Virus record (IMG/VR): IMGVR_UViG_3300037086_000397
Coordinates: 1-45,735 of that record
Strand: one strand, 5' to 3'
From: a virus
DNA length: 45,735 bases
Part shown: piece by piece, positions 5,325-45,735 of the stretch
Position numbering within the stretch: position 1 is the stretch's first letter
How the letters are laid out: the number at the start of each line of letters is the position of its first letter
Translations under genes and position numbers: made by a program
Notes under the pieces: model-generated
What the model saw: only the letters and a program-made list of their open reading frames with translations
Database searches by the model: none
What the model was told of the DNA's origin: nothing

Positions 5325-5771
5325 ATGGCTGACATCGATTATACTATCTTAACAGACAATGGTTTTGAAGTCTCTCTTGGAGATGTTCCAACCAAGGCTA
5401 CTGGTAATAAATTATTGTCTAATAGATTTACTATAACTTTCCTAACAACCATACGGCAGTATTTAATGGGGGAAACGCTAGTTACTGATAATTATGGCGG
5501 CGACGCATTGAAATATGTAGGACAACCACAGGCATTGAACAACCCACAAAGCATTGCATCTACTATCAGTATAGCAATGAATCAAACTATTGATTCAATA
5601 AAGTCATCTCAATCCACGGTGACTGATCCTACAGAACAATTAGCAAACGCAACACTGATAAATGTGTCGGTAGAAGTTGATAGGGTATATGCTACAATAC
5701 AAATTTTTCCTGTTGCTTATAGTTCGCCGAATGAACTGTATTTCACAATACCAGTCATGGGAATAAAATAA
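5325..5771 (+). CDS. Probable gp25-like baseplate wedge protein
   Basis: A 148-residue acidic protein. The size and pattern fit the T4 gp25 / phage W (IraD/gp25-like) fold: an N-terminal 'DIDYTILTDNGFEVSLGDV' strand pair, then 'FLTTIRQYLMGETLVTDNYGGDAL', which resembles the family's 'l.TprGE...dp.yG..l' core. A helix and a final beta-hairpin ending in hydrophobic residues follow. In T4-like phages gp25 sits beside gp6/J, and the J-like gene is next here, interrupted only by a homing endonuclease gene. The ribosome site is weak (AGAAAG about 20 nt upstream). The call rests on motif resemblance and gene order. Confidence 0.5.
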   Translation: MADIDYTILTDNGFEVSLGDVPTKATGNKLLSNRFTITFLTTIRQYLMGETLVTDNYGGDALKYVGQPQALNNPQSIASTISIAMNQTIDSIKSSQSTVTDPTEQLANATLINVSVEVDRVYATIQIFPVAYSSPNELYFTIPVMGIK

Positions 5772-6409: not shown

Positions 6410-6424
6410 ATATTGGGAGTTAAT

Positions 6425-9394
6425 ATGTTTCAGTTTGTACAATTTTTAAGAAAAAAGTGGACTGAATATAGCCCATCTAGCGGTGCCAAAGGCACTGTTA
6501 CAGATGAATTATGTACAAAACCAGCGGGACTTGTTCTTGCTGATTTTTATAATGCATTGGTAGAACAACAGGCTATCAATGACATCAACAATTGGCAGAA
6601 TATGACTGATGAACAATTGGATTTTTTTGGAAATAAATTTTTTATCCCAAGAGTGCAGGGTGCGGTTGCCGCCGGATCAATAAGAATCTTTTTTGATGCA
6701 AAACAGGATATTGAAATAACTTCTACATTAAATGCACAGTCAAATACTGGCCTTTTATACAAGGCTGTAATGCCAAGTATTATCAGTAAGAATTCAATGC
6801 AAATTTCAAATGATACTTCAGCAAAATATTATGTTGATGTTCTTATTCAGGCTTTATTTGCTGGAGCAAATTATAATGTCGACATAAACCAAATTACTTC
6901 ATTGGTAAATGCGTCATTTACTTATAAAAAAGTTACTAACCCAGAAAAAATTTCAGGTGGTTCTGTAAGAGAAACTAATGAACAATATGCTCAAAGATTA
7001 GTTTATTCTATTAATGATAGAAGTATGATGAATAAAAGAAGTTTGTTTGCAAATCTGCGAACTTATTTTCCTTATGTAAGTTCTGTTTATGTTGCAGCTC
7101 CTAGTGATAAATATATGACAAGAGACCTAGTACAGGCTCTTGATCTTTCAGTTCCGTTAAAAAAATCTGAATTTTTAGGTAAAATACAAGGAGACAATAG
7201 CGTCAATAATTCAGCTTATTGGGGAACCTTTCCTCCTGAAGCAGGAAGTGTAGGTGCTGCTTTTAGAGATCCACTTTCAATTTATTCTACATATCAATTT
7301 CCACAATCAATTGAACCTATCAATCTTGATGCAAGGGCAGATGTAGGACTTCATGGTTATCCATTAACTCAAGAAGCTACCACCCAAATGTATCAGGGTC
7401 TTTATTTTGATGATTATCGAAATTTTATGTCTGTTCAAACTTCAGATTTATTTAACATAATTAATGAAAATGTTTCCACGACCGCCATTACAAGTCCAAG
7501 TTCTGATTGGATTATTGGGGCAAATGGAAGACAAAATGGTGATTATGGCCAACTAAAAGCCGGCCTGGGAAATATTAATATTGTTCAATTTCAAAATAAT
7601 AATATAACTATATCAGCTGGTTCTGCTAATACTGTTACTGTTTCAAAAGATATAAAAAAAAGAGTAGGAATTAAATTATCGGGAACATTTAAAACTCCTG
7701 CAACAGAATCGTCATATAATGGTGGGTTACAATTTATGGTGGCGGGAGTTGATAATATAGATGATAATAGTATTAATGCTTTCACTGGTATAGGTTTTGG
7801 TATCAGAATAACAGGACCATCCACTGGAGAAGGTGGAGCTGCAAACGCAATGGTTTATTTTGCACATTCTGAAAGATATGGAGCGGGACAGATATTTGCA
7901 GCACATGATGATTTTGTTGGTAATAGTGTTAATGGTTTTATATCAACAGGCGGCATTAACGCACTCGCTGAAAAAGAATCAAAACTTACTCCTGGCGCTG
8001 AATATAGCTTTGAATTTTGTCTTAATGATGATTTAAGTTTAAGTTTATATCTTAAAAAAGTTTCTCCAGAAGGTAATGATCCTGATGATAAATTTAAACC
8101 TTGGCCCCTATCGCCAACGGTGTTAAATCCCTTTAGTAAATCAATTAATGACATTAATTCTCAAAATTATGGAACATTAATGAGGGTTACTTTGGATACA
8201 AAATCAATGGAGAATACCACTGATCAATGGATAATTTCAAATTTAAAAGCATTTGATATAGCTTCACATCGAGCAAATGCTCTTTTTATTTTTGATGTTC
8301 AAGATTTGGAAGCGCCATTATCAATTTCTTTCAGAGGGTCTGCTTCGGGATCAATTAATCAATCAGTTGGCTCTGGATATTCTGTTTATATTTGGGATAC
8401 AGAACAAGAATCTCCAGCCGGCGGAACTACAGCATTATCAATTGGTGGATGGTCTATTTTGGAAGATATATCCAATCCTACAGGTTTAAAAGATTCTATT
8501 ACAACAAATTTAGTTCAAAATCTTGCTAATATTGATCAATATGTAATTGAAAGTAGATTTGGAACTTCTATTATTCTTCTTGCAGTTGCCACAGGCAGTT
8601 CTGAGGCAAAAATAAAAGCGAATGGGAATCTTATGGATGATATTTATTCATCGATTGATATTGATTATGTTAAAATTGAAAGTGAACTCATTAATCAATA
8701 CCATGCAAATAACAAATCTGATGTATATGTTTGCACCGTTCAAAATGAAGAAAATCTTGATACTGTTATTACAGTTGTTGATAAGGGTCCTTCAGAGTCA
8801 TTTTTTCTTTTAAATAAAGCTAATGGATTTACAACTCCTATTGAAAGCATTAAAACGGTATCAATTAGTAATAATGGTTTAGTTGAAACACTTGCGGAAA
8901 ATACCTATAAAATAATCAGAAGTGATGTTAAGAATATTAATTCAATTTATGAGACAATGTATTTATCACTTGATAATAAAAGTATTAATGAGATTACTAT
9001 AGAATATTCTGCTTATAGAAATATTAATGATTTACAAAATTTCTATAATAGTTCTGAATTCAGTAGATTGTTTGGTAATATTCTTGTAAGACACAAATTT
9101 CCATGTTATCTTAATATTAATATTCTTTATACAGGTTTAAGTGCGGAAGAAGTTGTAATTGATGCTGTTAAAACTTATGTTGATGCTAATAATGATGGAA
9201 TATTTTCTATACCAGATATGATCAGTTATTTATACAATCAGAACATAGTTAATAATGTACAAATACCATTAACTATATCATATTCACAATATGATGATAA
9301 TATGAACATTGTAACTGGATCATTTACTAATACATTACAAATTAGAACAATTGATTTTTTCAGGATTCAAAATATTACAGCAAATAAATTATAA
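6425..9394 (+). CDS. Baseplate J/gp6-like protein with an inserted lectin-like domain
   Basis: About 989 residues from the ATG at 6425, which has GGGAG just upstream; an in-frame TTG at 6413 lies too close to that site to be the start. The N-terminal 250 residues carry the baseplate J hallmark 'AGANYNVDINQITSL' followed by 'NPEKISGGSVRETNEQYAQR' (Gly-Gly, then acidic, then Tyr-x-x-Arg). This identifies the wedge protein family that links baseplate wedges during contraction. A beta-rich stretch at about nt 7490-8260 (about residues 356-612) looks like a concanavalin/LamG-type jelly roll inserted into the family's usual fold. The C-terminus ('RHKFPCYLNINILYTG', then an Asn-rich beta region) resembles the usual J tail. 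At roughly 990 residues it is much longer than typical J proteins, which are about 300-660 residues. Confidence 0.82.
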   Translation: MFQFVQFLRKKWTEYSPSSGAKGTVTDELCTKPAGLVLADFYNALVEQQAINDINNWQNMTDEQLDFFGNKFFIPRVQGAVAAGSIRIFFDAKQDIEITSTLNAQSNTGLLYKAVMPSIISKNSMQISNDTSAKYYVDVLIQALFAGANYNVDINQITSLVNASFTYKKVTNPEKISGGSVRETNEQYAQRLVYSINDRSMMNKRSLFANLRTYFPYVSSVYVAAPSDKYMTRDLVQALDLSVPLKKSEFLGKIQGDNSVNNSAYWGTFPPEAGSVGAAFRDPLSIYSTYQFPQSIEPINLDARADVGLHGYPLTQEATTQMYQGLYFDDYRNFMSVQTSDLFNIINENVSTTAITSPSSDWIIGANGRQNGDYGQLKAGLGNINIVQFQNNNITISAGSANTVTVSKDIKKRVGIKLSGTFKTPATESSYNGGLQFMVAGVDNIDDNSINAFTGIGFGIRITGPSTGEGGAANAMVYFAHSERYGAGQIFAAHDDFVGNSVNGFISTGGINALAEKESKLTPGAEYSFEFCLNDDLSLSLYLKKVSPEGNDPDDKFKPWPLSPTVLNPFSKSINDINSQNYGTLMRVTLDTKSMENTTDQWIISNLKAFDIASHRANALFIFDVQDLEAPLSISFRGSASGSINQSVGSGYSVYIWDTEQESPAGGTTALSIGGWSILEDISNPTGLKDSITTNLVQNLANIDQYVIESRFGTSIILLAVATGSSEAKIKANGNLMDDIYSSIDIDYVKIESELINQYHANNKSDVYVCTVQNEENLDTVITVVDKGPSESFFLLNKANGFTTPIESIKTVSISNNGLVETLAENTYKIIRSDVKNINSIYETMYLSLDNKSINEITIEYSAYRNINDLQNFYNSSEFSRLFGNILVRHKFPCYLNINILYTGLSAEEVVIDAVKTYVDANNDGIFSIPDMISYLYNQNIVNNVQIPLTISYSQYDDNMNIVTGSFTNTLQIRTIDFFRIQNITANKL

Positions 9395-9396
9395 TT

Positions 9397-9912
9397 ATGA
9401 AGCCATTTGATCCTAATACTTTTTGGAATTTTATATCATCATTTTTTCAATTTTTAGATGAAAAATCTAAAAATATAATGGAGAATTTTTTTGATGGTTT
9501 AAATACGTCAGCCGGAGATATGACTGATAGGGCTAATGATTTTGTTAATGCTCAAGCTCCAGAAAATGCCAACACTAATGTCCAAGAAAATTATTATGAA
9601 ATTCCAGTTGATCCGTTAATAGCGTTACCTATAAAACTTGATCCAACTGATATTAATTCAAGGCAAATGATAATATCAAAATCAATCATTACAGTTGAGC
9701 CAATATATATAAATGGAAGTCCTGTTTATGGAGATATTATAGAAATAAGCGCTGAAGATTATTACACTTTAAGGGATATTGCAATTGGAAATTATGCAGT
9801 TATAGTTCCAAAGGATTCTTCGATTCCAACAAAATATTTTAAGATAGATACTTTAAAGTCGTCTGAAGAAGACCCGAATGGGGATAGATATTTTCCACCA
9901 ACTAGTCTATAA
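9397..9912 (+). CDS. Small baseplate-associated protein (unknown)
   Basis: A 171-residue protein starting 2 nt after the J-like gene. The N-terminal 50 residues are an aromatic amphipathic helix (DPNTFWNFISSFFQFLDEK). The middle is a flexible Asn/Ala/Pro segment, and the last 90 residues look beta-rich ('PVYGDIIEISAEDYYTLRDI'). I do not recognise a family. Its position between the J-like wedge protein and the first fibre suggests a baseplate-to-fibre connector, by inference only. Confidence 0.5.
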   Translation: MKPFDPNTFWNFISSFFQFLDEKSKNIMENFFDGLNTSAGDMTDRANDFVNAQAPENANTNVQENYYEIPVDPLIALPIKLDPTDINSRQMIISKSIITVEPIYINGSPVYGDIIEISAEDYYTLRDIAIGNYAVIVPKDSSIPTKYFKIDTLKSSEEDPNGDRYFPPTSL

Positions 9913-9921
9913 AAATAATAT

Positions 9922-12243
9922 ATGGCTTTATTTAAAATAACGATAGATAAGACGAAAGTTTCTGGATCACTCACTAATTACGTGTATGTGTTTACAGAAG
10001 GTTGTTCTAATATACCCGCACACTTTTGGACTGGCGTTATAGATGTCAATGGATTAGATATTAAGTTTTATGACTCAGATGATGCTACTGAATTAAAACG
10101 AACAATTGTTGTTTATGATTCTTCTGGTCAAAAAGTAGAAGTCCATGTAAAAATACCATCAATAGATTCTGGAACAGATAAAGTACTTTGGTGTCATTAT
10201 GGAAATACCACAAGGGCAAACGATATCGACGTATTTGCTTCTACTGATAGATATTATCCTCTTCAAACTACTACACCAACTGATTATGGTCCAAATACAA
10301 GTTCTGGATCAGGAACAAACAATACTGCTGAGGCACAACAAGTAGAAAAAGGAAATTCATTTACTGGAACTGGATACTTAAGTGGTGCTGGTTTAGAGTT
10401 TGATATAGGAAGTACCTGGACGTTTATTACTTGGGCAAAAACAAGTTCAGCGACTGCTCAGGAATTATTTGGTAAAGGATTTAGAATTAACTCAGGTAAT
10501 AAAAATTATGTTCAATTTTATTATGGAGCTGATGGTAAAATAAATTATGATTATGAAAAAAATACCGGCCCTAATGATTATGGTACTTTTTCAAATACAT
10601 CATATAAAGATGGAAATCTTCATCAATTTGCATTCGTTAATGTTACAGATAGTTCTGTCTCATTTTATGCTGATGGACAGTTTATAACGACCATTACCCT
10701 TTCAGCTACGGCTAGAGCATATAACGGATATAATACATGGTATGCTGGAGGGACTGCATCGTATATAGCCGGCCCTTTAACAGGCTCTATGGATTCAATT
10801 AGATTAAATGTTAGAGAAGTTGGCGCAGATGAAATTACAACTATTTATAATAATGAAAATTATCAATCAACATTTTCTTCCGCAGAAGATGTTTCTTCTG
10901 AAAGTGCATCAATAAGCCCATCTGCATCAATAAGCCCATCCAGCAGTGAAAGTTCATCTCTTTCTCCATCATCATCTATATCAGCTTCATTAAGTCCTTC
11001 TGAATCAGAGAGTCCTTCTTCATCAGAAAGTGCTTCTGTAAGTCCTTCGGTATCTGAAAGTGCTTCTGTAAGTCCCTCTGTGTCAGAAAGCGCCTCTATA
11101 AGTCCTTCTAAGTCAACTAGTCCCTCAGCCTCAAAAAGTACATCAATTAGTACGTCAGCATCAGTTAGCCCTTCATCTTCTGAAAGTGCTTCTGTAAGTC
11201 CATCTATATCAATTAGTCCATCTTTTTCAGAAAGCGCTTCCGTAAGTCCTTCTGTTTCAGAAAGTGCTTCAGAAAGTCCCTCATCATCTGAAAGTGCTTC
11301 TACAAGCCCTTCTGCATCAACAAGCCCATCTGAATCAGAAAGCCCATCTGAATCAGAAAGCCCTTCTTCTTCAGAGAGCCCTTCATCTTCTGAAAGTCCA
11401 TCACTATCGCCATCGGCATCTGAGAGTCCTTCATCTTCAGAGAGTCCATCTGAATCAGTAAGTCCATCAACATCAGAAAGTCCATCTATATCGCCATCAT
11501 CATCAGAAAGTGCCTCAGTTTCTCCATCGGCGTCTGAAAGCCCTTCAGCATCAATTAGTCCATCTTATTCTCTTAGCCCTTCGGCCTCATTATCGCCTTC
11601 TGCGTCAAGATCGCCATCTTCCAGCGCCAGTAGTTCTGTATCGCCATCGCGCAGTAGGAGCCCTTCAGCCAGTCTCAGTCCTTCATCGAGTATCAGTGCG
11701 TCTTTTAGTCCCTCAGCGTCTGTAAGCGCTTCCAGGAGCCCTTCAACATCAATTAGCCCATCCACCTCAGAAAGTCCATCAGAATCAGTAAGTCCGCCTG
11801 CCTCTGAGTCGCCATCAATCAGTCCATCCGCTTCAATGTCGCCAAGCGTATCTATAAGTCCTTCATCATCTGCGTCGGCTTCTAAGAGTCCTTCAATCAG
11901 CCCATCTTCTTCGATATCGTCCAGCGTATCGCCTTCACTGAGCCCTAGCTCAAGTATGTCGCCATCAATGTCGCCGTCATCTTCTACAAGCCCGTCATCC
12001 AGTGCTTCGGCATCAGGAAGCCCATCTTCTTCAATAAGTCCAAGCGCTTCGGCATCACCAAGTATACCGATTCCACCTTCTTCTAGTTGTAAGTATGTAA
12101 TTGTTTTAAAAGATGCTGATTTATCATATTTAAATGGTAAAGCATTCTCATTTTATATTACATCGGGTTCGGCATATAATGTTGATCCTAAAGTATTATC
12201 GTTACCAAATGTTCAATCAGAAATAGGTATTTATAATGGATAA
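9922..12243 (+). CDS. Tail fibre: DUF2341-like and LamG domains with long Ser/Pro-rich stalk
   Basis: 773 residues. Residues 1-95 resemble the DUF2341 beta-domain (ending 'KVLWCHYGNTT'). About 110-315 is a LamG/concanavalin-like lectin domain ('FTFITWAKTSS'-type strands and 'GSMDSIRLNVREVGADEI', the usual end of LamG modules). About 325-722 is an almost perfect low-complexity region in which every second residue is Ser (SPSxSxSPS type). The last 50 residues form a short folded cap. The layout is lectin head, extended stalk, small C-terminal domain. It is probably a host-surface or glycan-binding fibre. The Ser-rich stalk could be O-glycosylated, although no glycosylation sites can be proven here. 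It overlaps the next gene by 8 nt. Confidence 0.7.
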   Translation: MALFKITIDKTKVSGSLTNYVYVFTEGCSNIPAHFWTGVIDVNGLDIKFYDSDDATELKRTIVVYDSSGQKVEVHVKIPSIDSGTDKVLWCHYGNTTRANDIDVFASTDRYYPLQTTTPTDYGPNTSSGSGTNNTAEAQQVEKGNSFTGTGYLSGAGLEFDIGSTWTFITWAKTSSATAQELFGKGFRINSGNKNYVQFYYGADGKINYDYEKNTGPNDYGTFSNTSYKDGNLHQFAFVNVTDSSVSFYADGQFITTITLSATARAYNGYNTWYAGGTASYIAGPLTGSMDSIRLNVREVGADEITTIYNNENYQSTFSSAEDVSSESASISPSASISPSSSESSSLSPSSSISASLSPSESESPSSSESASVSPSVSESASVSPSVSESASISPSKSTSPSASKSTSISTSASVSPSSSESASVSPSISISPSFSESASVSPSVSESASESPSSSESASTSPSASTSPSESESPSESESPSSSESPSSSESPSLSPSASESPSSSESPSESVSPSTSESPSISPSSSESASVSPSASESPSASISPSYSLSPSASLSPSASRSPSSSASSSVSPSRSRSPSASLSPSSSISASFSPSASVSASRSPSTSISPSTSESPSESVSPPASESPSISPSASMSPSVSISPSSSASASKSPSISPSSSISSSVSPSLSPSSSMSPSMSPSSSTSPSSSASASGSPSSSISPSASASPSIPIPPSSSCKYVIVLKDADLSYLNGKAFSFYITSGSAYNVDPKVLSLPNVQSEIGIYNG
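10899..12087 (+). repeat. Low-complexity Ser/Pro-coding repeat (SPSxSx)n
   Basis: About 1.2 kb of degenerate hexamer-like DNA (forms such as 'tctgaaagtgcttctgtaag') encoding alternating Ser residues with periodic Pro. Codons for Ser vary widely (TCN and AGY), so the protein pattern is kept while the DNA drifts. This implies selection on the protein rather than fresh DNA duplication. Local GC content is above that of flanking genes. Confidence 0.9.
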
Positions 12244-36763: not shown

Positions 36764-37591
36764 TTATACAAAGAATTTTTTATTCTCTCTCGCTTTTCCA
36801 AAATTATAGATATCTTGCATTAGCTTTTTATAAGAAACTATATCAGGTTGCTTTAAAAACATTGCATTTTGCCGATCAAACCCAAGAATCCTGATAAATT
36901 CCTTATGATTATAGTCGGGAAGAAGTCCAACTTGGCAATAAGCTCTGACAAAATTACGATTAAATACAAATTTAAATTTATGACTAGCGCGTCCCATTGA
37001 AGCAATTTGCCTTATTTGCGAAAGTCTTTCTTCTGCAAGAAAAACATTCCCCATCTCAAACAATCCTTCTCGAAAATCTTTAAGCATTTTAGAAGAATTA
37101 TCTTTTCCCATCAATATCAATGACGTTTCTATGTTATTGATTTGATTTCGTTCCATCCAATATTTTAAATCAAGATATTGTTTGGCTTTCCATTCGCAGA
37201 ATGAGTGCAAATAAGCAGCAGTTTCCCATGCTACCATTTCTGCACTATCTTTTTGAATAGCAGACAAAACTTGTCTTATAGTATTTTCATCATCCTTTTC
37301 ATAATTATTTGTGAGGATAAATCTTATTGGAATATCGGCAAGTTTTGCTGCCTTTACTCTGTGTTGTCCGCAGAGTGAATAAAGTTTGTTTTTTATTATT
37401 ACCATAAGACACATTGATGTCATAAGCCAACCTATAGCTAACATTGAAGACGATATTCCCTGAACATGGGAATCAATGATTGGCCGATTTCCTTTTATAA
37501 AGAAAATATTATCATAATCTTTTGTCTCATAAACATGTCCAGGAACAATTGAGGATATAAATTTTGGAATTTGATTAATTACTGGAAACAT
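36764..37591 (-). CDS. ParB/Spo0J-like nuclease-domain protein
   Basis: 275 residues from the ATG at 37591, preceded by CAAAGGAAAA; an in-frame Met 17 codons upstream lacks a ribosome site. The N-terminal 95 residues show the ParB/sulfiredoxin fold: an Ile-rich strand, 'SSMLAIGWLMTSMCLM', then 'KLYSLCGQHRVKAAKLADIP' with Gly75, Gln76, His77 and Arg78 of the G-x-H-R loop that binds or hydrolyses nucleotides. The C-terminal 180 residues are helical and unlike partition proteins. Phage ParB-like proteins have varied roles (nuclease, regulator). The name PRTRC contains 'ParB-related', but this gene is about 7 kb from the ubiquitin-like cassette. Confidence 0.65.
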   Translation of the reverse strand: MFPVINQIPKFISSIVPGHVYETKDYDNIFFIKGNRPIIDSHVQGISSSMLAIGWLMTSMCLMVIIKNKLYSLCGQHRVKAAKLADIPIRFILTNNYEKDDENTIRQVLSAIQKDSAEMVAWETAAYLHSFCEWKAKQYLDLKYWMERNQINNIETSLILMGKDNSSKMLKDFREGLFEMGNVFLAEERLSQIRQIASMGRASHKFKFVFNRNFVRAYCQVGLLPDYNHKEFIRILGFDRQNAMFLKQPDIVSYKKLMQDIYNFGKARENKKFFV

Positions 37592-37673
37592 TTTATTTTC
37601 CTTTGTTTTAAGTGGCGACCTAGGCAATAGCCTTTTGGTCATTATGAAATTTACAGTTATCCCAAAGTATGGG

Positions 37674-38671: not shown

Positions 38672-39180
38672 AGCACCTCCTTCGAAATCATGTTTCCCGT
38701 TTGCCTGATAATGATATTATGCGAGGAATTTTTATTTATCAGTTTTCCCTGCACATTATAATACCTTGCATCAACAGGAACAGGTCTCACTATGTTTGAA
38801 GGAATTGAAGCGACCGAGACAGTGCCGGCGGTGGTAAAGCTCCAAATCTGGGATTTTGAACAAAATTCACCAGTTCCCCATACTTGCCAGTAATATGTGG
38901 TTCCTTTTTGCAGATCAAAGCCAAGGTACACTATAGTATCATACCATCCAATTCCGTCTACCTTATAAGCGGTGCCATTTACAATAGAGTCCAGGCTGGT
39001 TGATATCCACATATAAAAATTTTGATTCCGCCCAAGACTCCAGGAAAATACCACTCCCCCAGCATCTGGTTTGACGTTTACAGCGCCATTAGCGGGAGTC
39101 TTAAGCACAAACGGTTCGCTACTTGTCGGCTGGACAAGACAAATAAGAAGGCCGAAGCAGAGAAAAAGTATCGTTTTCAT
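38641..39180 (-). CDS. Secreted Fn3-like protein with a T9SS-type-like C-terminal tail
   Basis: 179 residues. A signal peptide occupies 1-21 ('KTILFLCFGLLICLVQPTSS'). Residues 22-120 form a fibronectin-III-like beta-sandwich, 'SEPFVLKTPANGAVNV' then 'YYWQVWGTGEFCSKSQIWSF' (the usual 'tYyWrV' and 'iwsFtT' strands). The last 40 residues read 'ARYYNVQGKLIN' followed by Ile-rich and Lys-rich strands. That is close to the 'Y.LQG..v......G.yi...gk' pattern of type IX secretion C-terminal domains. It is unusual as phage cargo. It may be exported by the host cell. The Fn3 call is from pattern only. Confidence 0.5.
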   Translation of the reverse strand: MKTILFLCFGLLICLVQPTSSEPFVLKTPANGAVNVKPDAGGVVFSWSLGRNQNFYMWISTSLDSIVNGTAYKVDGIGWYDTIVYLGFDLQKGTTYYWQVWGTGEFCSKSQIWSFTTAGTVSVASIPSNIVRPVPVDARYYNVQGKLINKNSSHNIIIRQTGNMISKEVLWNCSRKTSR

Positions 39181-39194
39181 AATATCTCCTTTAT

Positions 39195-39214
39195 AATAAG
39201 CGTTATTGCTTATT
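39195..39214 (-). promoter_or_regulatory. Leader hairpin before the secreted-protein gene
   Basis: 7-bp stem AATAAGC / GCTTATT with a 6-nt loop, overlapping the upstream stop codon and lying 2-3 nt before AAAGGAG. It is one of four hairpins placed just upstream of ribosome sites on this strand. Confidence 0.4.
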
Positions 39215-39448
39215 AAAGAATAAAGTTATTACAGATAGTTTTGAACAATCACAACCTTCATGATCGATGATAGTCGTAGCTTCTAAGGATTTGAACATTG
39301 GGCATTGATAAAGTTCCAACAAAAAATCCTTAGTAATTGGTGTTGGCTTGAGTATGATTTGATAACCATCAGGTTCATCAAAAATGAATGCAATTGGTTT
39401 TCCAATAAGAATAAGTTGGATGTAACCATGCAATTCTTCAAACTTCAT
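39203..39448 (-). CDS. Small orphan protein
   Basis: 81 residues; AAAGAAAGGG precedes the ATG. Alternating strands and helices ('KPIAFIFDEPDGYQIILKP', 'LLELYQCPMFKSLEAT') end in a Cys pair 'CDCSKL'. No family recognised. It is transcribed with the secreted-protein gene downstream. Confidence 0.5.
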   Translation of the reverse strand: MKFEELHGYIQLILIGKPIAFIFDEPDGYQIILKPTPITKDFLLELYQCPMFKSLEATTIIDHEGCDCSKLSVITLFFNKQ

Positions 39449-39467
39449 ATAAAATCCCTTTCTTTGA

Positions 39468-39493
39468 ATAGTAAGACGGCATTGCCTTACTAT
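39468..39493 (-). promoter_or_regulatory. Leader hairpin next to a candidate extended -10
   Basis: 8-bp stem ATAGTAAG / CTTACTAT with a 10-nt loop, just before the ribosome site of the 39448 gene. Upstream on the - strand, TGGTATAAC (39498-39506) fits an extended -10 (TGnTATAAT). The mRNA would then start at about this hairpin. Confidence 0.4.
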
Positions 39494-39526
39494 CTTAGTT
39501 ATACCATATAAGGGGGTATAATAACT

Positions 39527-39570
39527 AAAAAAAAGCCTCCAATACCTTTCAGTATTGGAGGCCTTATTTT
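39527..39570. terminator. Strong bidirectional terminator after nadV
   Basis: 11-bp stem GCCTCCAATAC / GTATTGGAGGC (39535-39545 and 39552-39562). On the - strand it is followed by eight T residues. It lies 17 nt past the NadV stop and ends the NAD operon. Confidence 0.85.
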
Positions 39571-39586
39571 CTAAATAAATAACAGT

Positions 39587-40936
39587 TTATTCGTAGTATA
39601 TAACGCCATTTGCATTCTGTCTTATCTCTTCAAAAGAATACTCTTTCATAATATTCCCATTAAGATAGACGGTTTGCATCAGGCTGTTATAACTTTCTCC
39701 GTTCACTGTTTTTACCTTGCGAAGCATCGACAGCTCCAAATCGAGAATGCCTTTTTTGGATTTCTTGCCAGGGTCAGTTGCTGGATCTTTGTAGACCTCA
39801 ATATCTTTTCCATCAACTTTAGCCCAGCTGCATTTGAAGGCAAACTTATTCGTATCCCTGTCAAAGCCTTTTTGAAGCAATCCACCACCCATTCCGAATG
39901 CGAGATTGGTAGCGCTGAAATGTATCTTCTCAGCAGCTTCCAAAATTTTCTCCAGAATTTCATCATTGATACCGTCTCCTTGAATTACTCTTACCTTATT
40001 CAAGACTTTATATCCTTGATGATTCATTGTATAACCAAATCGATCACCTAGAATACAAAGAAGCCGGCAAACAACTTCAACAGGATCGCCAGAATCAGGT
40101 CTCACAACCAATGTCGCATTCATCTTCATCACTTCTTCTTTGAGTTTATCTCCCCAAAGATTTGCTGCGGCATTGTAATTGATCATATTTCTATATGCAT
40201 CAATCTCGTTGTCTTTCCCCCACATACTCATGGTGAAATGCTCTGCCACAGGGATGGAGAAACCGGCCATGTTGATGTTGTAATATTTATTGGCCATCCA
40301 TATACCAGCAATAGTATCCGACCCCATAAAGTTAACCAAATGAGCTGCCCCACCAATCATTGCCTGTTCCTGACAAGAGACGCCCCTGCTGCCAAAATCA
40401 TGGAGTTTGAATCCAATTTCGGCATTGGGATTATCGGAAGTTTTATTAAGATATTTCTGGATAACACTTTTGACATGCCATCCGTATGTGGCTATAGTAA
40501 TAGGATACCATAACCTGACCAAAAGTGTTTCAATCCACGAAACAATCCCGAAAATATCAGGATCTTCAACGGAAGTCTGGACGGAAAATAGAATGTTATG
40601 GGTAGGAATAACGCATCCTTCAGGAACTGCCCTGATTTTTATAGGAAGCCTTCCTCCATAAGTATTGACAATTTTCATCCATCCATCGTAATTAAAAGGA
40701 CAACCATGAAGTTGAGCAAATGCTTTTGCTTCTTCAACTTCAAATCTGGTTATCGGATTCGAAAGATATTTTTTCAGATAATACTGCAAACCGAAGAAAA
40801 GTGTTTCTCTCCAACGACCACCACGGCTTTCAAAATAAGAAAACATCGCAGTAGTCTTGGGAGGATATTGACACCAGTGGGAAAGTTTGTAGCTATCGGT
40901 GTCTAAAACCAGGCTAAGGACAAGGCGATTTTCCAT
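39587..40936 (-). CDS. nadV: Nicotinamide phosphoribosyltransferase (NAMPT)
   Basis: 449 residues from the ATG at 40936, which has AAAGGAG 7 nt upstream; a longer in-frame start at 40993 lies inside the upstream gene. It converts nicotinamide and PRPP to nicotinamide mononucleotide. Diagnostic segments are present: 'LDTDSYKLSHWCQYPP' (N-terminus), 'HDFGSRG' (179-185, ribose/phosphate site), 'VPVAEHFTM'-type motif with His233 aligned to the phosphorylated catalytic His, 'VRPDSGDP' (278-285) and 'FGMGGGLLQ' (347-355). Full length for the family. It follows nadM with 40 nt between them, in one operon. The pair reconstitutes NAD+ from nicotinamide and is expected to help the phage survive NAD-depleting defences. 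Confidence 0.93.
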   Translation of the reverse strand: MENRLVLSLVLDTDSYKLSHWCQYPPKTTAMFSYFESRGGRWRETLFFGLQYYLKKYLSNPITRFEVEEAKAFAQLHGCPFNYDGWMKIVNTYGGRLPIKIRAVPEGCVIPTHNILFSVQTSVEDPDIFGIVSWIETLLVRLWYPITIATYGWHVKSVIQKYLNKTSDNPNAEIGFKLHDFGSRGVSCQEQAMIGGAAHLVNFMGSDTIAGIWMANKYYNINMAGFSIPVAEHFTMSMWGKDNEIDAYRNMINYNAAANLWGDKLKEEVMKMNATLVVRPDSGDPVEVVCRLLCILGDRFGYTMNHQGYKVLNKVRVIQGDGINDEILEKILEAAEKIHFSATNLAFGMGGGLLQKGFDRDTNKFAFKCSWAKVDGKDIEVYKDPATDPGKKSKKGILDLELSMLRKVKTVNGESYNSLMQTVYLNGNIMKEYSFEEIRQNANGVIYYE

Positions 40937-40955
40937 GATAAAACTCCTTTGTTTC

Positions 40956-40974
40956 AATTCTCTCATTGAGAATC
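40956..40974 (-). promoter_or_regulatory. Leader hairpin before nadV
   Basis: 7-bp stem GATTCTC / GAGAATT (one wobble) with loop AATGA, then GAAACAAAGGAG. The same arrangement stands before nadM. It lies between the two genes and could be a processing or stability element. Confidence 0.45.
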
Positions 40975-40976
40975 TA

Positions 40977-41993
40977 TTAAAGTTTATTGACAAAATACTG
41001 GATTATTGCGAGATGATCTTCAAAGAAATTTTCTTCTAACAATGCAAGATCATTAATAGGAACCCATTGAGCTGAAGCCGCATCATCGTCTCCTCTTACA
41101 ACAGGAAGAGGTTTGTCACCATCAAGAACAAATAGATAAGCATGAGTTATGCTACGACCACGCAAACTTCGTTTTGGATGGTCAAAAACATGCTGATCTT
41201 TGATACAACGCTCAAGAACTGGAAATGGAACAGCTATTTTTGTCTCTTCCCTTAGTTCCCTGATAGCGCAATGGCTGATAAACTCATCCTGATTCAAGAA
41301 TCCACCAGGAAGTGCATATCTTCCTTTTCCAGGTTCGACTTTTCTTGTAACTAAAAGAATATGACCAGCCTGAACGACAACCGCATCAGTTGTTACAAAT
41401 GTTGGAGGAAATGGGGCAACTCCCCATATTTTTTTATAAGATTTAATATAATGATACTCATCCTGTAGTCGTTTAAAAGTATCAGTTTTCTTAAAATCAT
41501 CCAATTCATTTGCAACACGAACTGGGACCATATGATCCCATTTATCCGTTTCTCCCAACAGTCTTTCGCGTATTAGCGTTCCATCAATTCTTTCTCCATA
41601 CGCAAAAACTGCTGGTTGCGGCAAAAGTTTCCATTGAGGAAAGAAATTCAGATAGTACGAAGAGTCATCTTTAAAATGACCTATCAAAGAAACATCACCC
41701 TCTCCTACCATACTTGCTACGGTATTTTGAAGTGACGTTATCCATGTAGTATCACTATAAAGAAAATCACGAAGAGGGCGAATAAGAAGTCTGCTGGTTT
41801 CTTGCCCCGATAAACTATTATTAATAAAATTTCGTCGGGACTCAAAATCCCACGGATTTTTTATTGTTGTTGGAGCCCTATAACTTCCAAGAACAACAAT
41901 AACACGATCTGATTGTTCAAGTGCGGTTTGAATGAGGGTTTTGTGGGCGTTATGAAATGGTTGACCGCGCAGTACAAATACTGTATACTTCAT
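40977..41993 (-). CDS. nadM: Bifunctional NMN adenylyltransferase / Nudix hydrolase
   Basis: 338 residues; AAAAGGAG precedes the ATG. The N-terminal NadM-type nucleotidyltransferase (1-165) has the 'GQPFHNAH' nucleotide-binding motif (His14 and His17; the usual HxGH reads H-N-A-H) and 'GTLIRERL' near 138-145, the family's IxxTxIR phosphate loop. The C-terminal Nudix domain (about 200-338) has an intact Nudix box, Gly231-x5-Glu237-x7-Arg245-Glu246-Leu-x-Glu-Glu, with Thr251 where Gly is most common. NMN and ATP give NAD+; the Nudix part probably hydrolyses ADP-ribose. The domain order matches bacterial NadM-Nudix proteins and those of some large phages such as KVP40. Upstream of nadV in an operon. 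Confidence 0.92.
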   Translation of the reverse strand: MKYTVFVLRGQPFHNAHKTLIQTALEQSDRVIVVLGSYRAPTTIKNPWDFESRRNFINNSLSGQETSRLLIRPLRDFLYSDTTWITSLQNTVASMVGEGDVSLIGHFKDDSSYYLNFFPQWKLLPQPAVFAYGERIDGTLIRERLLGETDKWDHMVPVRVANELDDFKKTDTFKRLQDEYHYIKSYKKIWGVAPFPPTFVTTDAVVVQAGHILLVTRKVEPGKGRYALPGGFLNQDEFISHCAIRELREETKIAVPFPVLERCIKDQHVFDHPKRSLRGRSITHAYLFVLDGDKPLPVVRGDDDAASAQWVPINDLALLEENFFEDHLAIIQYFVNKL

Positions 41994-42011
41994 ACTAACT
42001 CCTTTTGTTTC

Positions 42012-42030
42012 GGCTCTCTCTTTGAAAGCC
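42012..42030 (-). promoter_or_regulatory. Leader hairpin before nadM
   Basis: 7-bp stem GGCTTTC / GAGAGCC (one wobble) with loop AAAGA, then GAAACAAAAGGAG. This is nearly the same layout as before nadV, which suggests a common regulatory or stabilising element. Confidence 0.45.
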
Positions 42031-42059
42031 TATGTGAATACTGTTACATTTTAAAGATA

Positions 42060-42205
42060 CTACATGGTTCAGTGACTGCTCCCACGGCTAAAGCCGTGGG
42101 CTTTCTCGCTCACAAGATCGTAAATTGGCCTGAAAAATCGGTTAAAGGGCATTTGGCTCCTAATCAGGTTTAAAGCCCCGCGACTTTAGTCGCAGGGGAT
42201 ATTTA
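42060..42205 (+). mobile_element. Minimal IS200/IS605-type element (MITE-like), ends only
   Basis: A left hairpin CCCACGGCT / AGCCGTGGG (42082-42101) is followed by 'CTTTCTCGCTCAC'. A right hairpin CCCCGCGACT / AGTCGC-A-GGGG (42177-42199) lies about 75 nt further on. This pair is characteristic of IS200/IS605-family ends with subterminal palindromes. No transposase or TnpB frame remains between them, so it is a non-autonomous remnant. The exact cut sites were not determined. It lies in the gap between nadM and the acidic 135-residue protein. No gene is seen in the rest of this roughly 270-nt gap. Confidence 0.7.
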
Positions 42206-42233
42206 CATTTTATTCCTTCTAATTGTTATAATT

Positions 42234-42258
42234 AAAAAAAAGGCTGCGCGATGCAGCC
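42234..42258 (-). terminator. Terminator of the ubiquitin-like cassette
   Basis: Stem GGCTGC / GCAGCC (42242-42247 and 42253-42258), followed on the - strand by eight T residues and immediately downstream of the stop codon. It ends the right-hand cassette before the IS element. Confidence 0.8.
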
Positions 42259-42263
42259 TATTT

Positions 42264-42671
42264 TTAATCAGTTTCAGGAATATCAGTCGCTTGAGGAGCA
42301 GGAGGTACTGGAGGAATATCACTTTCAGGAACTACGTCAGGGTCTGCGTTACTCATTGACGTAAGGATTGCTGCTTCAACCTCTTCAAGATCGTCTGTCT
42401 TCTCAAGTTCATTACCATAGTCGTCATAGATAATGAATTTAGTTGGCGTGATATCGAGATCGAAATCGATATTCTGAGCCATATCGCATATAAACTCAAT
42501 TTTGCATCCTGAGTTTGAAGCGATAGCGGATTCAATATCAGGTTCAACTGATCCAGGTTCCGTATCGTCATCTTTTGGATATGTGCAAATAATACTTGTT
42601 ACTTTTTCGAGATTAATTAATTGAGTATGATATCCGTCAGCTTCTTTTGTGATTACTTTTATTGCTCTCAT
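42264..42671 (-). CDS. Acidic protein, last gene of the ubiquitin-like cassette (unknown)
   Basis: 135 residues; AGGAG lies 5 nt before the ATG. The N-terminal 60 residues are beta-rich ('IKVITKEADGYHTQLINLEK', 'SIICTYPKDD'). The centre and C-terminus are very acidic and end in a Pro-rich tail ('VPPAPQATDI'). It resembles nothing I know. Being in the same operon, it may be a substrate, adaptor or inhibitor of the cassette, but the sequence does not say which. Confidence 0.5.
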   Translation of the reverse strand: MRAIKVITKEADGYHTQLINLEKVTSIICTYPKDDDTEPGSVEPDIESAIASNSGCKIEFICDMAQNIDFDLDITPTKFIIYDDYGNELEKTDDLEEVEAAILTSMSNADPDVVPESDIPPVPPAPQATDIPETD

Positions 42672-42694
42672 ATTTCTCCTATACTAGAAATAAA

Positions 42695-42720
42695 GAAGGG
42701 GCTTATTCAGCCCCATCTTC
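42695..42720 (-). terminator. Internal hairpin, partial terminator
   Basis: GAAG-GGGCT / AGCC-CCATCTTC stem with loop, followed on the - strand by TTCTTTATTTC. It is between the Ubl gene and the acidic protein. It may only reduce expression of the last gene. Confidence 0.45.
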
Positions 42721-42742
42721 GGTGAAATAACCAACCGAATGG

Positions 42743-43216
42743 TTAGTTACCTTTGGTTCTCGTGCTCAGAACGAGGCGCACGGGAAGGGCGGCATCTGCG
42801 GGTGTCGGAATGGTCGTATCGCCAGAGACCGCTTCTCCGCCATTGATACGGTATTCATAGACATCCTTACCCTCTTCCGTGTAGAACTTCGCCCTGTCTG
42901 CCGGCGGCAGCGTGTTGATCAGGCTTTTGATCGAAGTGCCTGATTCACAGGGAAGTTCGATGATGGCATCCGTATGCCCGATACGGATGATTTTTACCGT
43001 AAAGGGCGTGTTGCCCTTCATAGCGTCGCCGATATAGACGACATCGCCGTCTTCGAGTTCGTAGCCACGTTCCACATTCTCCTGGTTCACGGTGATGCAA
43101 CCAGGCCTGTAGTTCACGTTGGCTTTGTCCAGAAGGCCTCCAACTGTCGGGTTGTCGGAGATTTCATACTCGATGACCGGCTTACCGATGAGTACTAATT
43201 TGACCAGAACACACAT
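42743..43216 (-). CDS. Tandem ubiquitin-like (beta-grasp) protein
   Basis: 157 residues; AAGGAG 7 nt before the ATG. It holds two ThiS/MoaD-like beta-grasp units. Unit 1 (1-69) shows 'VLIGKPVIEYEI', a helix, and 'LEDGDVVYIGDA' near its end, like MoaD/ThiS proteins. Unit 2 (70-157) shows the same strand-helix-strand pattern ('TVKIIRIG', 'IKSLINTLPPADR', 'PVRLVLSTRTKGN'). Both end in Lys-Gly-Asn (67-69 and 155-157). I recall the ubiquitin-like protein of PRTRC systems ending in Thr-Lys-Gly, which matches unit 2 except for the extra Asn. Peptidase trimming could expose the Gly for E1 activation. This gene is clearly more GC-rich than its neighbours, a sign of recent acquisition or distinct codon use. 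Confidence 0.75.
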   Translation of the reverse strand: MCVLVKLVLIGKPVIEYEISDNPTVGGLLDKANVNYRPGCITVNQENVERGYELEDGDVVYIGDAMKGNTPFTVKIIRIGHTDAIIELPCESGTSIKSLINTLPPADRAKFYTEEGKDVYEYRINGGEAVSGDTTIPTPADAALPVRLVLSTRTKGN

Positions 43217-43233
43217 GATAGAACTCCTTAAGG

Positions 43234-43995
43234 TTATATTGACTTGAATTGGCGATACATATGATCATAATGTTCGCCATCTGCTGCAACACATTCGGGA
43301 AATACAAACTGCAGTTCACTAAGAACCTTTGGTGCAGTAGCTTCACCGCGTTTCAGATATTCTTTTCCATACTTCAGATCAAAGTGATGGATAAGCCTCC
43401 AAACCGCTCGACTGGCTAGATTATATACGGTTGGTATTATTGACGCAGATGCGCCACATGCCGATACTTCGGCCTGATCGTCATCGTATAATGTCTTTTG
43501 CCATTCTTCAACTTCGACTGGATTATTTGGATCAAAGGCATAGACCCTACCTTTATCTATACCCATTCTCGTCTCAATAACCAAATCGGTGGTGAATGAA
43601 TACTGTAAAACGTTCTTAAATATATCCTTTCTACTGGCCATGGTATCGGTCAATAGAAAGACATAAGTTGATCTTACATCGTTTTGGTTAGTGACCATTT
43701 CATTGTGAGTCTCAATAGTAAAGCCGCACTTGCGCATAATCACATCAGCAAGTGCCATTACTTTTGGCATACCAATGTGACTTCGATCATACGCCTGATT
43801 GACTAAATTATGCTCCTCAACAATATCACCATCCCACACTTTCATTGTTCCTTGGCCTTGGACTGAGTTGCCCCAGCCCATTTGAGCTAATTGGAGAGCT
43901 ACATATGAGCCCGTTGCTCCGACACCGATAATTGCTACGCTTTTCTTTCCAATTTGACTTGGATCGAGTAGCGCTAATTGCCTCGAATAATCCAT
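43234..43995 (-). CDS. ThiF/E1-like adenylyltransferase
   Basis: 253 residues from the ATG at 43995 (AGAGG 5 nt upstream). A nearby GTG at 44001 is too close to the ribosome site. The nucleotide-binding loop is 'GVGATG' (24-29). 'WDGDIVEEHNLVNQAY' (54-69) has Asp55, Asp57, Asn63 and Gln67, the adenylation core of the family. Cys180 in 'EVSACGASASI' is the best candidate for the thiol that carries the Ubl; there is no CxxC zinc site. The protein would activate the C-terminal Gly of the Ubl next door. It is flanked by the JAB gene (12 nt upstream) and the Ubl gene (17 nt downstream), so it is one operon. Confidence 0.85.
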   Translation of the reverse strand: MDYSRQLALLDPSQIGKKSVAIIGVGATGSYVALQLAQMGWGNSVQGQGTMKVWDGDIVEEHNLVNQAYDRSHIGMPKVMALADVIMRKCGFTIETHNEMVTNQNDVRSTYVFLLTDTMASRKDIFKNVLQYSFTTDLVIETRMGIDKGRVYAFDPNNPVEVEEWQKTLYDDDQAEVSACGASASIIPTVYNLASRAVWRLIHHFDLKYGKEYLKRGEATAPKVLSELQFVFPECVAADGEHYDHMYRQFKSI

Positions 43996-44007
43996 AAACA
44001 CCTCTTT

Positions 44008-44811
44008 CTATTTTGTAAACTCAAAAGCGTATGAGTGTTTATGTTTATTTTTCTTACTTCTTTTTCCTCCAGCAAAGTAATTTTCCCTCGGTGTATACGT
44101 GGTATCAGGCCCATAATGCTTGACTATTCCACGATTAGGAAGTGGGGGAGTCCCAAATCCCATTCTTCTTTGATTCCAGTCATCAACTCCTTCTCCATAT
44201 AACTCATCACTGAAACCGTTGCTGAGAGGATATGATGGCGTGGTGGGAAGATTTACCGCTTTCAATTCGAGGATTTTTGCCCTTATCTTTTTATCCTCTT
44301 CATCTTCATCGGTTTCCCATTTGATATTATCAAAACGACGTTTGTTCTGATAATCGTAAAATGAGATAGACAGCAATCCTGCCTTGTTGAAAATGCCTCG
44401 GATAAGATAAGATTCGTTTCTATTCATTCTTTCAATTGACTGAGTCTCATCCTGTCCTGAAGGAGAAACTCCCATATCGACATGGGAGTGTCCCCAGAAC
44501 TTCGCCTTGCTTAAATCGGCTTCTCTGTTATGAGTCATCAGCCATTCAGCCATCAATGTTTCACCTTCGGGGGAGATTTCACACGTGGCTCCTGCAGCTT
44601 CAGAGTGTTTGGGATAAAAGATATCCCTGATAACGTATGTATTGTTTTCAAGTTCGTCTACAAAACCAAATACGCCGACTTCATGAGGATGAAGATCGGC
44701 AATAGCAGTCAACCATTTCAAGGCATTACCTGTAACCCTGATTGTAGGTGCTGTTATTTTAATTGGTTCGAGAGTTGTGTAAGTTGTTTGTTTAGCTGGT
44801 TCTGGCTTCAT
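44008..44811 (-). CDS. JAB/JAMM-domain metalloprotease (deconjugase)
   Basis: 267 residues; GGAGG precedes the ATG and the start overlaps the E2-like gene by 20 nt. The JAMM zinc motif is complete: Glu44 in 'HPHEVGVFGF', then His108-x-His110-x7-Ser118-x2-Asp121 ('FWGHSHVDMGVSPSGQD'). This is the zinc hydrolase signature of isopeptidases. The C-terminal 100 residues are a charged extension with Pro, Gly and basic stretches. Expected role: trimming the Ubl precursor and/or removing it from targets. It is active-site intact, unlike inactive family members. Confidence 0.9.
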   Translation of the reverse strand: MKPEPAKQTTYTTLEPIKITAPTIRVTGNALKWLTAIADLHPHEVGVFGFVDELENNTYVIRDIFYPKHSEAAGATCEISPEGETLMAEWLMTHNREADLSKAKFWGHSHVDMGVSPSGQDETQSIERMNRNESYLIRGIFNKAGLLSISFYDYQNKRRFDNIKWETDEDEEDKKIRAKILELKAVNLPTTPSYPLSNGFSDELYGEGVDDWNQRRMGFGTPPLPNRGIVKHYGPDTTYTPRENYFAGGKRSKKNKHKHSYAFEFTK

Positions 44812-45735
44812 TTGCTTCCTCCACTATTGGCCACATTTGAATAGGGCGACCCATCACATCATCTTCATTGGGAGTGCGAATATATCTCACCAATAAATCG
44901 ACGAGCTGTTCCAGGTCTTTGTTAATCAGACATTTTAATATCGGCTCAGTCCATGTTCCGAAACAGGGTTGGCCAACAAGATTAACATGACCGCATTCTT
45001 GACCAGCATTTAAGTCTTCTCTTGTGCGGTTTCGTATGATAATCGGAGGTTCATTTGTTACTCTGGTTCCCAGCATGGCGTCAAGCCTTACATAGAATTC
45101 CATTTCACCAATATCTCTCTTCTTACCATCTTTTAACGGGTTGGTTATGATGTGGTCGGTTTTAATTACGAGATAATTGTTGGTAAAGTAAATTTCCTTT
45201 ATCATATTATGCTCGTTTTTTACCAATCCATCAATTTTTTCCCTGAATAACGAAACAATGGGATCCGCTCCGAGCGAACTTGATAACCTTGTAATTTCAT
45301 TCTGCATAGTCATAAGATTGGCCATTAGTCTGTTATACTGAGCAGTTCTATCCATCAGCATTTTGGCCCGACCTGCAGCGTCATTATCAAGTTTGGAAGC
45401 AATTAACGTTGTCAGATTTTCAGGAGTGATTTTTTCAAGATTTGGAAACCCTCTTAATGAATTGTGTTCTGACCCATCTTTGGGAACGTCACGGAATGCG
45501 GGATGTTCTTTTTGGCATGTACAGCGATCAATCAATTCCTCACAATCCTCACATCTTTCGCAATCGCAATCCGAAAGAAGGTGATCACATGCCGGACATC
45601 TTGGTTCTTCATCAACCTGTCCAGGAGCAGGTGTTGCACCTGCATTTTGGGCAGTTTGTCGTTGCTGCTGCTCGGCTGCAGTTACTATGGCATAACTGTA
45701 TTCGACAATGCCGTTATTAACATGTGTTGTTATCG
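44792..45735 (-). CDS. E2-like ubiquitin-conjugating fold protein, 5' partial
   Basis: The frame is open to the right edge, so the N-terminus is missing; a TTG at 45535 should not be taken as the start. About 314 residues are visible. The part near the edge is Gln/Ala-rich, followed by a Cys cluster ('RCPACDHLL', 'DCDCERCEDC') that looks like one or two zinc sites. The C-terminal 140 residues fit an E2-type fold: strands, then 'NEPPIII', then 'HVNLVGQPCFGTWTEPILKC' with the candidate catalytic Cys (codon 44963-44965), then the helix 'LEQLVDLLVRYIRTPNEDD', much like the 'HPN...C...W.P' core of E2 enzymes. It would pass the Ubl from E1 to a target. It is the first gene of the visible cassette. 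Confidence 0.7.
   Translation of the reverse strand, partial: ITTHVNNGIVEYSYAIVTAAEQQQRQTAQNAGATPAPGQVDEEPRCPACDHLLSDCDCERCEDCEELIDRCTCQKEHPAFRDVPKDGSEHNSLRGFPNLEKITPENLTTLIASKLDNDAAGRAKMLMDRTAQYNRLMANLMTMQNEITRLSSSLGADPIVSLFREKIDGLVKNEHNMIKEIYFTNNYLVIKTDHIITNPLKDGKKRDIGEMEFYVRLDAMLGTRVTNEPPIIIRNRTREDLNAGQECGHVNLVGQPCFGTWTEPILKCLINKDLEQLVDLLVRYIRTPNEDDVMGRPIQMWPIVEEANEARTS

Follow-up and report, generated by a model that had tools for sequence, protein, structure and literature searches.

The right end of the virus record IMGVR_UViG_3300037086_000397 (45,735 bases, analysed as a whole and hereafter called the window) carries a minus-strand gene cassette that probably encodes a phage ubiquitin-like protein (Ubl) conjugation system, whose JAB/JAMM metallopeptidase would cut a Ubl or poly-Ubl precursor. 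The cassette goes beyond chance: its motifs, its gene linkage and the purifying selection on it recur over tens of divergent phage loci. An earlier note on this DNA had read five open reading frames (ORFs) at this end as such a cassette; the ORF list places all five on the minus strand at the coordinates that it gave and bears out the order of the E2-like, JAMM, ThiF/E1 and Ubl genes, and the cassette reading is supported.

In the direction of transcription, the cassette comprises a gene for an E2-like protein (44792–45735), the JAB/JAMM metallopeptidase (44008–44811; 267 amino acids), a ThiF/E1-like adenylating enzyme (43234–44001; 255 amino acids, GTG start), a tandem Ubl with two predicted beta-grasp units (42743–43216; 157 amino acids) and a small acidic ORF (42264–42671; 135 amino acids, 31 D/E and 8 K/R), all on the minus strand. 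Neighbouring genes are separated by a 20-base overlap and then by gaps of 6, 17 and 71 bases. The set had been described as complete in the window; four parts are indeed present, but the E2-like gene is truncated, with the last 313 of its 373 codons inside and its 5′ end beyond the window (the full gene lies at 8899–10020 of locus L002). The contig IMGVR_UViG_3300014839_000005 (128,500 bases) overlaps the window and comes from the same phage: window positions 39133–45735 correspond to contig positions 1–6603 (6,603 bases) at 99.955% identity, with three mismatches, each in the E2-like gene. Directly upstream of the first E2-like gene, and beyond the window, this contig carries a second one (679 amino acids), and the completed cassette reads E2a-E2b-JAB-E1-Ubl2. 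Of the five window proteins, the E1 alone scored above cut-offs in scans against Pfam, NCBIfam, PHROGs and PADLOC.

Relatives were collected by scanning IMG/VR with a JAB alignment, which gave 183 pattern matches and 168 relatives, of which 80 were kept; together with loci gathered earlier these made 94 JAB loci, 62 of them non-redundant. In 60/62 non-redundant loci E1 is no more than 991 bases from JAB on the same strand, and in 39 the two genes overlap or are at most 20 bases apart; the two loci in which no E1 was seen (L080 and L091) break off within the JAB gene. An E2-like gene is present in 61/62 loci, 42 by hidden Markov model (HMM), 14 more as a divergent cluster and five, less securely, by reading (L015, L016, L017, L042 and L095); L071 starts inside JAB. 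The HMM recognised the main Ubl family in 40 loci, and a second Ubl-like cluster accounts for 13 more. Gene order varies, with Ubl-E1-JAB-E2 in 12 loci, Ubl-E2-JAB-E1 in nine and E2-JAB-E1-Ubl in seven, so that the set stays together through rearrangement. Nei-Gojobori estimates for eight related pairs gave ratios of non-synonymous to synonymous change (dN/dS) below 1 wherever these could be computed: 0.06–0.12 for E1 (one pair with zero dN), 0.08–0.19 for JAB, 0.09–0.28 for Ubl and 0.11–0.69 for E2 (seven pairs). The E2-like protein has the lowest identity of the four proteins in 6/7 related pairs.

The earlier note knew of no identical phage cassette; the set in fact recurs in many uncultured phages, as the 168 IMG/VR stretches with a JAB relative attest. 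Searching GenBank phages with the window E1 returned 45 records, all below 60% identity (29 Flavobacterium, six uncultured, three Xanthomonas, three Bacteroides and four others). An equivalent set occurs between the DNA primase and uracil-DNA glycosylase genes of Kolpuevirus (Crassvirales) and of bajarodcaudo virus 1; one annotation makes its E1 a thiamine biosynthesis protein, the other an E1 enzyme family protein. A distant relative is carried by a cultivated crAss-like phage of Bacteroides cellulosilyticus, with the E1 annotated as thiamine biosynthesis and the JAB as a metalloprotease-domain protein. Among prokaryotes, sampled at one genome per species (84,980 genomes), 26 loci were found, 25 of them in metagenome-assembled genomes and one on a CAG scaffold. 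The E1 of the Xanthomonas phage, used as a query against viral contigs, found no relative, and the JAB of locus L008 had no match among GenBank phages at 1e-3. The L008 E1 matched ThiF genes on four plasmids, two regions of which were inspected and have no annotated E2 or JAB; a plasmid search with the L008 E2 gave no match at E up to 1. In the open literature, searched by titles and the beginnings of abstracts with subscription literature outside the scope, no phage E1-E2-JAB-Ubl set is described among the matches listed.

The metal ligands of the JAB and the nucleotide site and candidate catalytic Cys of the E1, which the earlier note had seen in the window, are widely conserved. The window E1 matches Pfam ThiF over residues 6–207 (61.7 bits against a cut-off of 28.1; 7.8e-17), which places it in the ThiF/E1 superfamily, and its profile matches E1, UBA5, ThiF and MoeB (best 2.5e-18). 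Over 61 E1 sequences (60/62 loci and the Xanthomonas phage), the glycines G26 and G28 of the nucleotide-binding GxGxxG motif (GVGATG; 43909–43926), both Asp residues of DxD, N65, Q69 and K80 are kept in 60, the other having a gap, and the candidate catalytic cysteine C182 (43456–43458), which lies inside the ThiF domain, is kept in all 61. An N-x-x-R-Q motif is found in MoeB; at the position of its canonical Arg, 56/60 of the E1 sequences have Asn. The JAB protein carries the full JAMM ligand set E…HxH-x7-S-x2-D (signature HSH-x7-S-x2-D at 44449–44490). Its residues E44, H108, H110, S118 and D121 are invariant in eight aligned sequences; over the 62 loci the last four are kept in all and E44 is aligned in 59. 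The JAB profile found seven chains, all of them JAMM proteins, at weak scores (best E 0.21).

The tandem beta-grasp architecture proposed for the Ubl gained support from a structure model (27 sequences; pLDDT 85.9, pTM 0.53), with which Foldseek placed polyubiquitin, linear di-ubiquitin and ISG15 first (E 2e-7 and weaker), at sequence identities of 7–19% over the 50 matches listed. Single units were most similar to MoaD and SAMP1 by VIA-align (Z 9.4), and the family HMM, whose seed includes the window sequence itself, recognises two units in the window protein; model and comparisons together predict the beta-grasp fold. The first unit ends in K67-G68-N69 (43010–43018) and the second, at the C-terminus of the protein, in K155-G156-N157 (42746–42754); we propose that JAB cuts after G68 and after G156. 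G68 is invariant in both alignments, A4 (eight rows) and A6 (27 rows, from 37 proteins). Across the 40 HMM-positive loci there are 49 Ubl segments, from which residues 23–52 of L030 were dropped as spurious; a second match in L025 (E 0.02) was left out under the limit of 0.01. In each of the 48 main-family units that remain, the residue before the glycine is K (43), R (4) or V (1), and the chain runs on past the glycine for one residue or more, beginning with Asn in 39. Most relatives have a single unit; two or three are present in 7/40 loci, and the (K/R)G motif is repeated at 8/8 internal junctions. The Ubl of L022 has three units, each with a KQIKGN end. These units are 68–72% identical in pairs and have diverged at dS > 1, which suggests that KQIKGN is kept by selection and not by recent copying.

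The sulfur carriers ThiS and MoaD have GG at the mature C-terminus, a feature that the window Ubl, with its KGN ends, does not share. We take the single terminal glycine and tail to resemble the end of UFM1; UBA5, the E1 for UFM1, is among the best matches of the phage E1 profile. The Xanthomonas phage PhiXhv-15 offers a natural contrast: its cassette consists of Ubl, E2 and E1, and its Ubl ends in SGG with no tail. Over the whole 228,725-base genome (ORFs of at least 60 amino acids) the JAB profile reached a best E of only 0.43, the positive controls of this search being members of the profile's own seed, and the JAMM pattern occurred in a single 94-residue ORF that looks spurious. The JAB alignment A2, run against four phage records, failed to pick up the JAB of a Flavobacterium phage, and that search was therefore not used as proof that PhiXhv-15 lacks JAB.

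For the E2-like protein, the predicted UBC-like core spans approximately residues 217–365 of the full-length protein, preceded by an N-terminal part with a Cys-rich stretch. The model (37 sequences) is poor over the first 160 residues, whereas between residues 161 and 360 all ten-residue blocks but one score above 80. The 50 best VIA-align rows were all, by title, E2 enzymes or E2-containing complexes (Z 7.0–8.2; 103–127 residues at 3.1–4.5 Å, within residues 213–372). A profile of 11 E2-like proteins found as its best PDB match a UbcH5B-RING fusion (E 0.0041), aligning HPHV..G..C on HPNI..G..C of the fusion and, for some phage members, a Cys-rich C-terminus on its RING; weaker E2 matches (E 0.6–1.9) came interspersed with unrelated chains. 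In an alignment of 37 of the 54 non-redundant E2-like proteins, every sequence has H309 and G319, and at least 90% keep C317; the corresponding stretch of the window protein, H309-V-N-L-V-G-Q-P-C317 in full-length numbering, lies at 44963–44989. Counts from a sequence pattern were not used for this cysteine because five matches (L002b, L014, L043, L047 and L080) fall outside the aligned site. The earlier note had named three outcomes that would refute the cassette (no UBC fold, no beta-grasp in the Ubl, no co-transcription), and the results did not refute it; as to the UBC fold, VIA-align favours it and Foldseek lacks significance.

As a separate observation, seven E2-like proteins (L005, L006, L008, L010, L014, L023 and L051) have at least three CxxC pairs towards the C-terminus, and the C-terminal part of the E2 profile aligns weakly to RING/PHD-type zinc domains; judged from these sequences, a built-in E3 is possible in the Cys-rich E2-like proteins.

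In the conjugation mechanism that we favour, the Ubl would be made as an inactive precursor, of two fused units here and one to three in relatives, each unit ending in Lys-Gly (or Arg/Val-Gly) and a short tail. JAB would cut after the glycines, releasing mature Ubl monomers; the E1, to judge from its conserved residues, would adenylate the exposed glycine and hold the Ubl on Cys182; and one or both E2-like proteins would take the Ubl onto their cysteine and join it to targets, the choice of which may fall to Cys-rich or coiled-coil regions flanking the E2 core. JAB may also remove the tag and recycle the Ubl. Phage or host proteins of DNA metabolism might be the first candidate targets, because genes for replication and recombination are repeatedly neighbours of the cassette: the fetched flanks of the 62 loci contain clusters of an SNF2-type helicase (18 loci, the window phage's own helicase included), family A DNA polymerase (PolA; 15), reverse transcriptase (RT; 14) and DnaB (11), each cluster being named from one or two scanned members and given as a raw count. 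This link between cassette and replication is only a lead.

Several results weigh against this scheme. Its weakest step, on the model comparisons, is the E2 identity of the window's own protein, which has GHVN…CFG in place of HPHV; its VIA-align scores lie in the range where the tool warns of common arrangements (Z < 8), Foldseek gave no significant match to the model (best E 0.09, to a ribosome complex), and no Pfam or NCBIfam E2 family matched. JAB exceeded the Pfam Prok-JAB cut-off in 0/6 phage records, matching below it in four with no match in the other two, and since HSH was part of the search pattern by which most loci were collected, the conservation of the JAMM residues is partly by construction. 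The Ubl fold matches have whole-protein TM-scores of only 0.31–0.44 over the 50 listed, as is expected if two units pack differently. HMM and clustering detected no Ubl gene of either family in 9/62 loci, three of which (L015–L017) have, by reading, a candidate N-terminal Ubl domain with a KSG-motif end. The Ubl-like ORFs of a second, RT-associated clade end in VKANNA-type sequences, outside the KG rule, and the JAB-less, GG-ending contrast rests on the one lineage of PhiXhv-15.

Bil, a bacterial system, protects the cell by tagging phage proteins. As far as the portions of the sources consulted extend, here and below, Bil consists of four genes for an ISG15-like tandem Ubl, an E2, a JAB that cuts the Ubl precursor before activation and an E1 (PMC11354881); the window likewise has a tandem Ubl, JAB, E2 and E1 as separate adjacent genes. 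BilD is described as having an inactive and an active adenylation domain and a Cys domain of approximately 80 amino acids, and BilB as having a CEHH motif (C, E at +6, H at +8 and H at +13) (PMC11354881), whereas the window E1, at 255 amino acids, has one adenylation domain with C182 inside it, and the window E2 has E at +6 from C317 but I at both +8 and +13. The set differs from Bil also in being phage-borne and in its Ubl copy number of one to three. PRTRC is the plasmid form of the type 6d operon, and its cassette includes a ParB-related gene. PRTRC_ThiF scored 39.6 bits with the window E1 and 33.2 with that of L008, against a cut-off of 144.75; PRTRC_B had no match in 6/6 phage records, the L017 JAB reached 14.6 bits with PRTRC_A (cut-off 101.8), and three E2, two JAB and two Ubl proteins gave no PRTRC match at E up to 1. 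Membership of the PRTRC or Bil type, which the earlier note had named as sets of this kind, was accordingly rejected, as neither definition applies in full.

Type 6d operons do group Ubl, JAB, E1 and E2 in one bacterial operon, as the phage set does, but their E2 lacks the classical E2 histidine in the description given (PMC1779556, Iyer et al. 2006), whereas all 37 aligned phage E2-like proteins have a His upstream of the Cys. The type 6e polyUbl operons resemble the phage set in their tandem Ubl repeats, reminiscent of polyubiquitin, and differ in their JAB-E1 fusion and in an E2/RWD protein that is inactive (PMC1779556), where the phages have separate JAB and E1 proteins and keep the E2-like cysteine. 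The lambda/T1 tail genes TAPI-TAPK are likewise phage-borne Ubl and JAB genes; they are tail assembly genes and, in the part of the source consulted, are described without E1 or E2 (PMC1779556). Eukaryotic polyubiquitin and ISG15, among the top fold matches of the phage Ubl, are also linear fused precursors. Because it departs from the Bil E1 and E2, the PRTRC cut-offs and the 6e fusion, the phage set fits none of these families; it seems equipped to act as a Ubl conjugation system outside the Bil, PRTRC and polyUbl definitions.

Two alternatives concern the use of the system and are compatible with conjugation chemistry. The set could be a weapon against other phages or a means of superinfection exclusion, tagging competitors' virion proteins in a Bil-like manner. 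It has the same parts list as Bil (PMC11354881), its E2 is the least conserved protein in 6/7 pairs, as expected when targets change, NAD salvage genes of possible counter-defence function adjoin it, and 14/62 loci have a retron-like RT nearby, a gene type often met in defence; the E1 and E2 nevertheless depart from the Bil definitions and it is replication genes (SNF2, PolA and DnaB) that recur beside the cassette, and we regard this use as unlikely. Counter-defence, in which the phage would add tags to host immune proteins or take them off, as in a reversal of Bil or CBASS modification, is distinctly unlikely: JAB could serve as a deconjugase and the NAD salvage genes are adjacent, yet a deconjugase alone would do and a matched Ubl, E1 and E2 are kept together with it. 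The fast evolution of the E2 would suit changing targets and is in keeping with either use.

The other two alternatives concern the chemistry itself. The E2-like proteins might be inactive UBC/RWD-like adaptors in a system that only adenylates or processes its Ubl, as the altered HPH motif and weak fold score of the window protein would allow and as the inactive E2/RWD partners in polyUbl operons illustrate (PMC1779556); against this, the cysteine is kept near an invariant His and Gly, and the 679-residue paralogue upstream retains APHV…C-H-G, which leaves us giving this reading little credence. That the E1 and JAB charge a ThiS/MoaD-like carrier with sulfur for nucleobase or cofactor thiolation, with the E2-like protein an accessory, is very unlikely, for although single Ubl units are most like MoaD and SAMP1, the L005 Ubl matches the ThiS Pfam family (2.5e-5), the E1 profile also matches ThiF and MoeB, and JAB occurs with ThiS-like genes in sulfur clusters (PMC1779556), an E2-like protein accompanies nearly every locus, two- or three-unit precursors fit a modifier better than a catalytic carrier and, a weaker point, no rhodanese, desulfurase or thiolase was seen among the neighbours (nine clusters with a scanned member, six named).

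The sequence around the cassette bears on the extent of the predicted operon. Two terminator-like hairpins, each a consensus match only, follow the Ubl gene (42698–42714, minus strand; L002 12098–12114; six pairs) and the acidic ORF (42241–42259, minus strand; L002 12553–12571; with a run of seven T). Terminator-like sites are in excess (19 against 7.4 expected, standard deviation 3.0), whereas promoter-like sites show no clear excess (36 against 27.5, standard deviation 5.9); the window has no RNA in Rfam at gathering scores and no tRNA by ARAGORN. The claim of one operon is consistent with tight packing on one strand and a terminator-like hairpin after the last gene, and does not extend to the NAD genes, which are probably a separate unit because each of the two genes before them is followed by such a hairpin. 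The acidic protein noted as a fifth member is indeed encoded, but at E 0.01 the fetched loci yielded no relative of it outside its own phage; the protein therefore lies outside the conserved set, was rejected as a component of the system and, on sequence comparison, is probably a passenger.

The NAD genes (39587–41993, minus strand) form a salvage pair in which NAMPT (Pfam NAPRTase 2e-49) adjoins a fusion of a nucleotidyltransferase (NadM) and a Nudix domain (NUDIX 1.6e-17); the pair presumably resembles phage NAD-restoring counter-defence. Further downstream on the same strand, 4.6 kb from the cassette and beyond the NAD genes and the terminator-like hairpins, a ParB-like partition protein (36767–37642, minus strand; phrog_12305, 2e-9), possibly a phage-plasmid trait, has no NCBIfam match at E up to 1. 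Upstream of its cassette the window phage has a PD-(D/E)XK nuclease and an ORF that we take to be VRR-NUC-like. The latter lies directly upstream in L002 (6432–6746) and L003 (7078–7374), the two loci whose E1 is closest; found in only 4/63 loci, it was rejected as a core partner.

The second cassette clade (L013, L061, L063, L065, L072, L073, L075, L077, L081, L085, L087, L092, L095 and L097; 14/62 loci) has a retron-like RT, downstream of E1 where read, which in L072 is a PADLOC RT_II-A match (1e-54). Its E2 is divergent (PHFQFYHCLGDY-like) and a Ubl-like ORF of approximately 75–79 amino acids is present in 13 loci. Elsewhere in the window, on the plus strand, are a sigma-70 region 2/3 match below Pfam cut-offs (2461–3165), a GIY-YIG/NUMOD3 homing-endonuclease-like ORF (5771–6406) and a baseplate wedge protein (6413–9391; phrog_6, 6.4e-18).

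A broader picture, which we hold only tentatively and think more doubtful than the conjugation reading itself, is that tailed phages, a crAss-like one included, own a distinct viral lineage of Ubl signalling, with polyubiquitin-style precursors, E2-RING-like fusions and a replication-coupled tag placed on replication or takeover proteins, comparable to SUMO or ubiquitin. Bacterial Ubl conjugation is now studied mainly as anti-phage immunity, a picture that a complete and recurrent set in phage genomes reverses. The system is also compact, with four kinds of protein, visible precursor sites and a natural JAB-less contrast, and its activation, processing and targets are directly testable. If the reading is true, viruses would mark proteins inside bacteria as eukaryotic cells do with ubiquitin.

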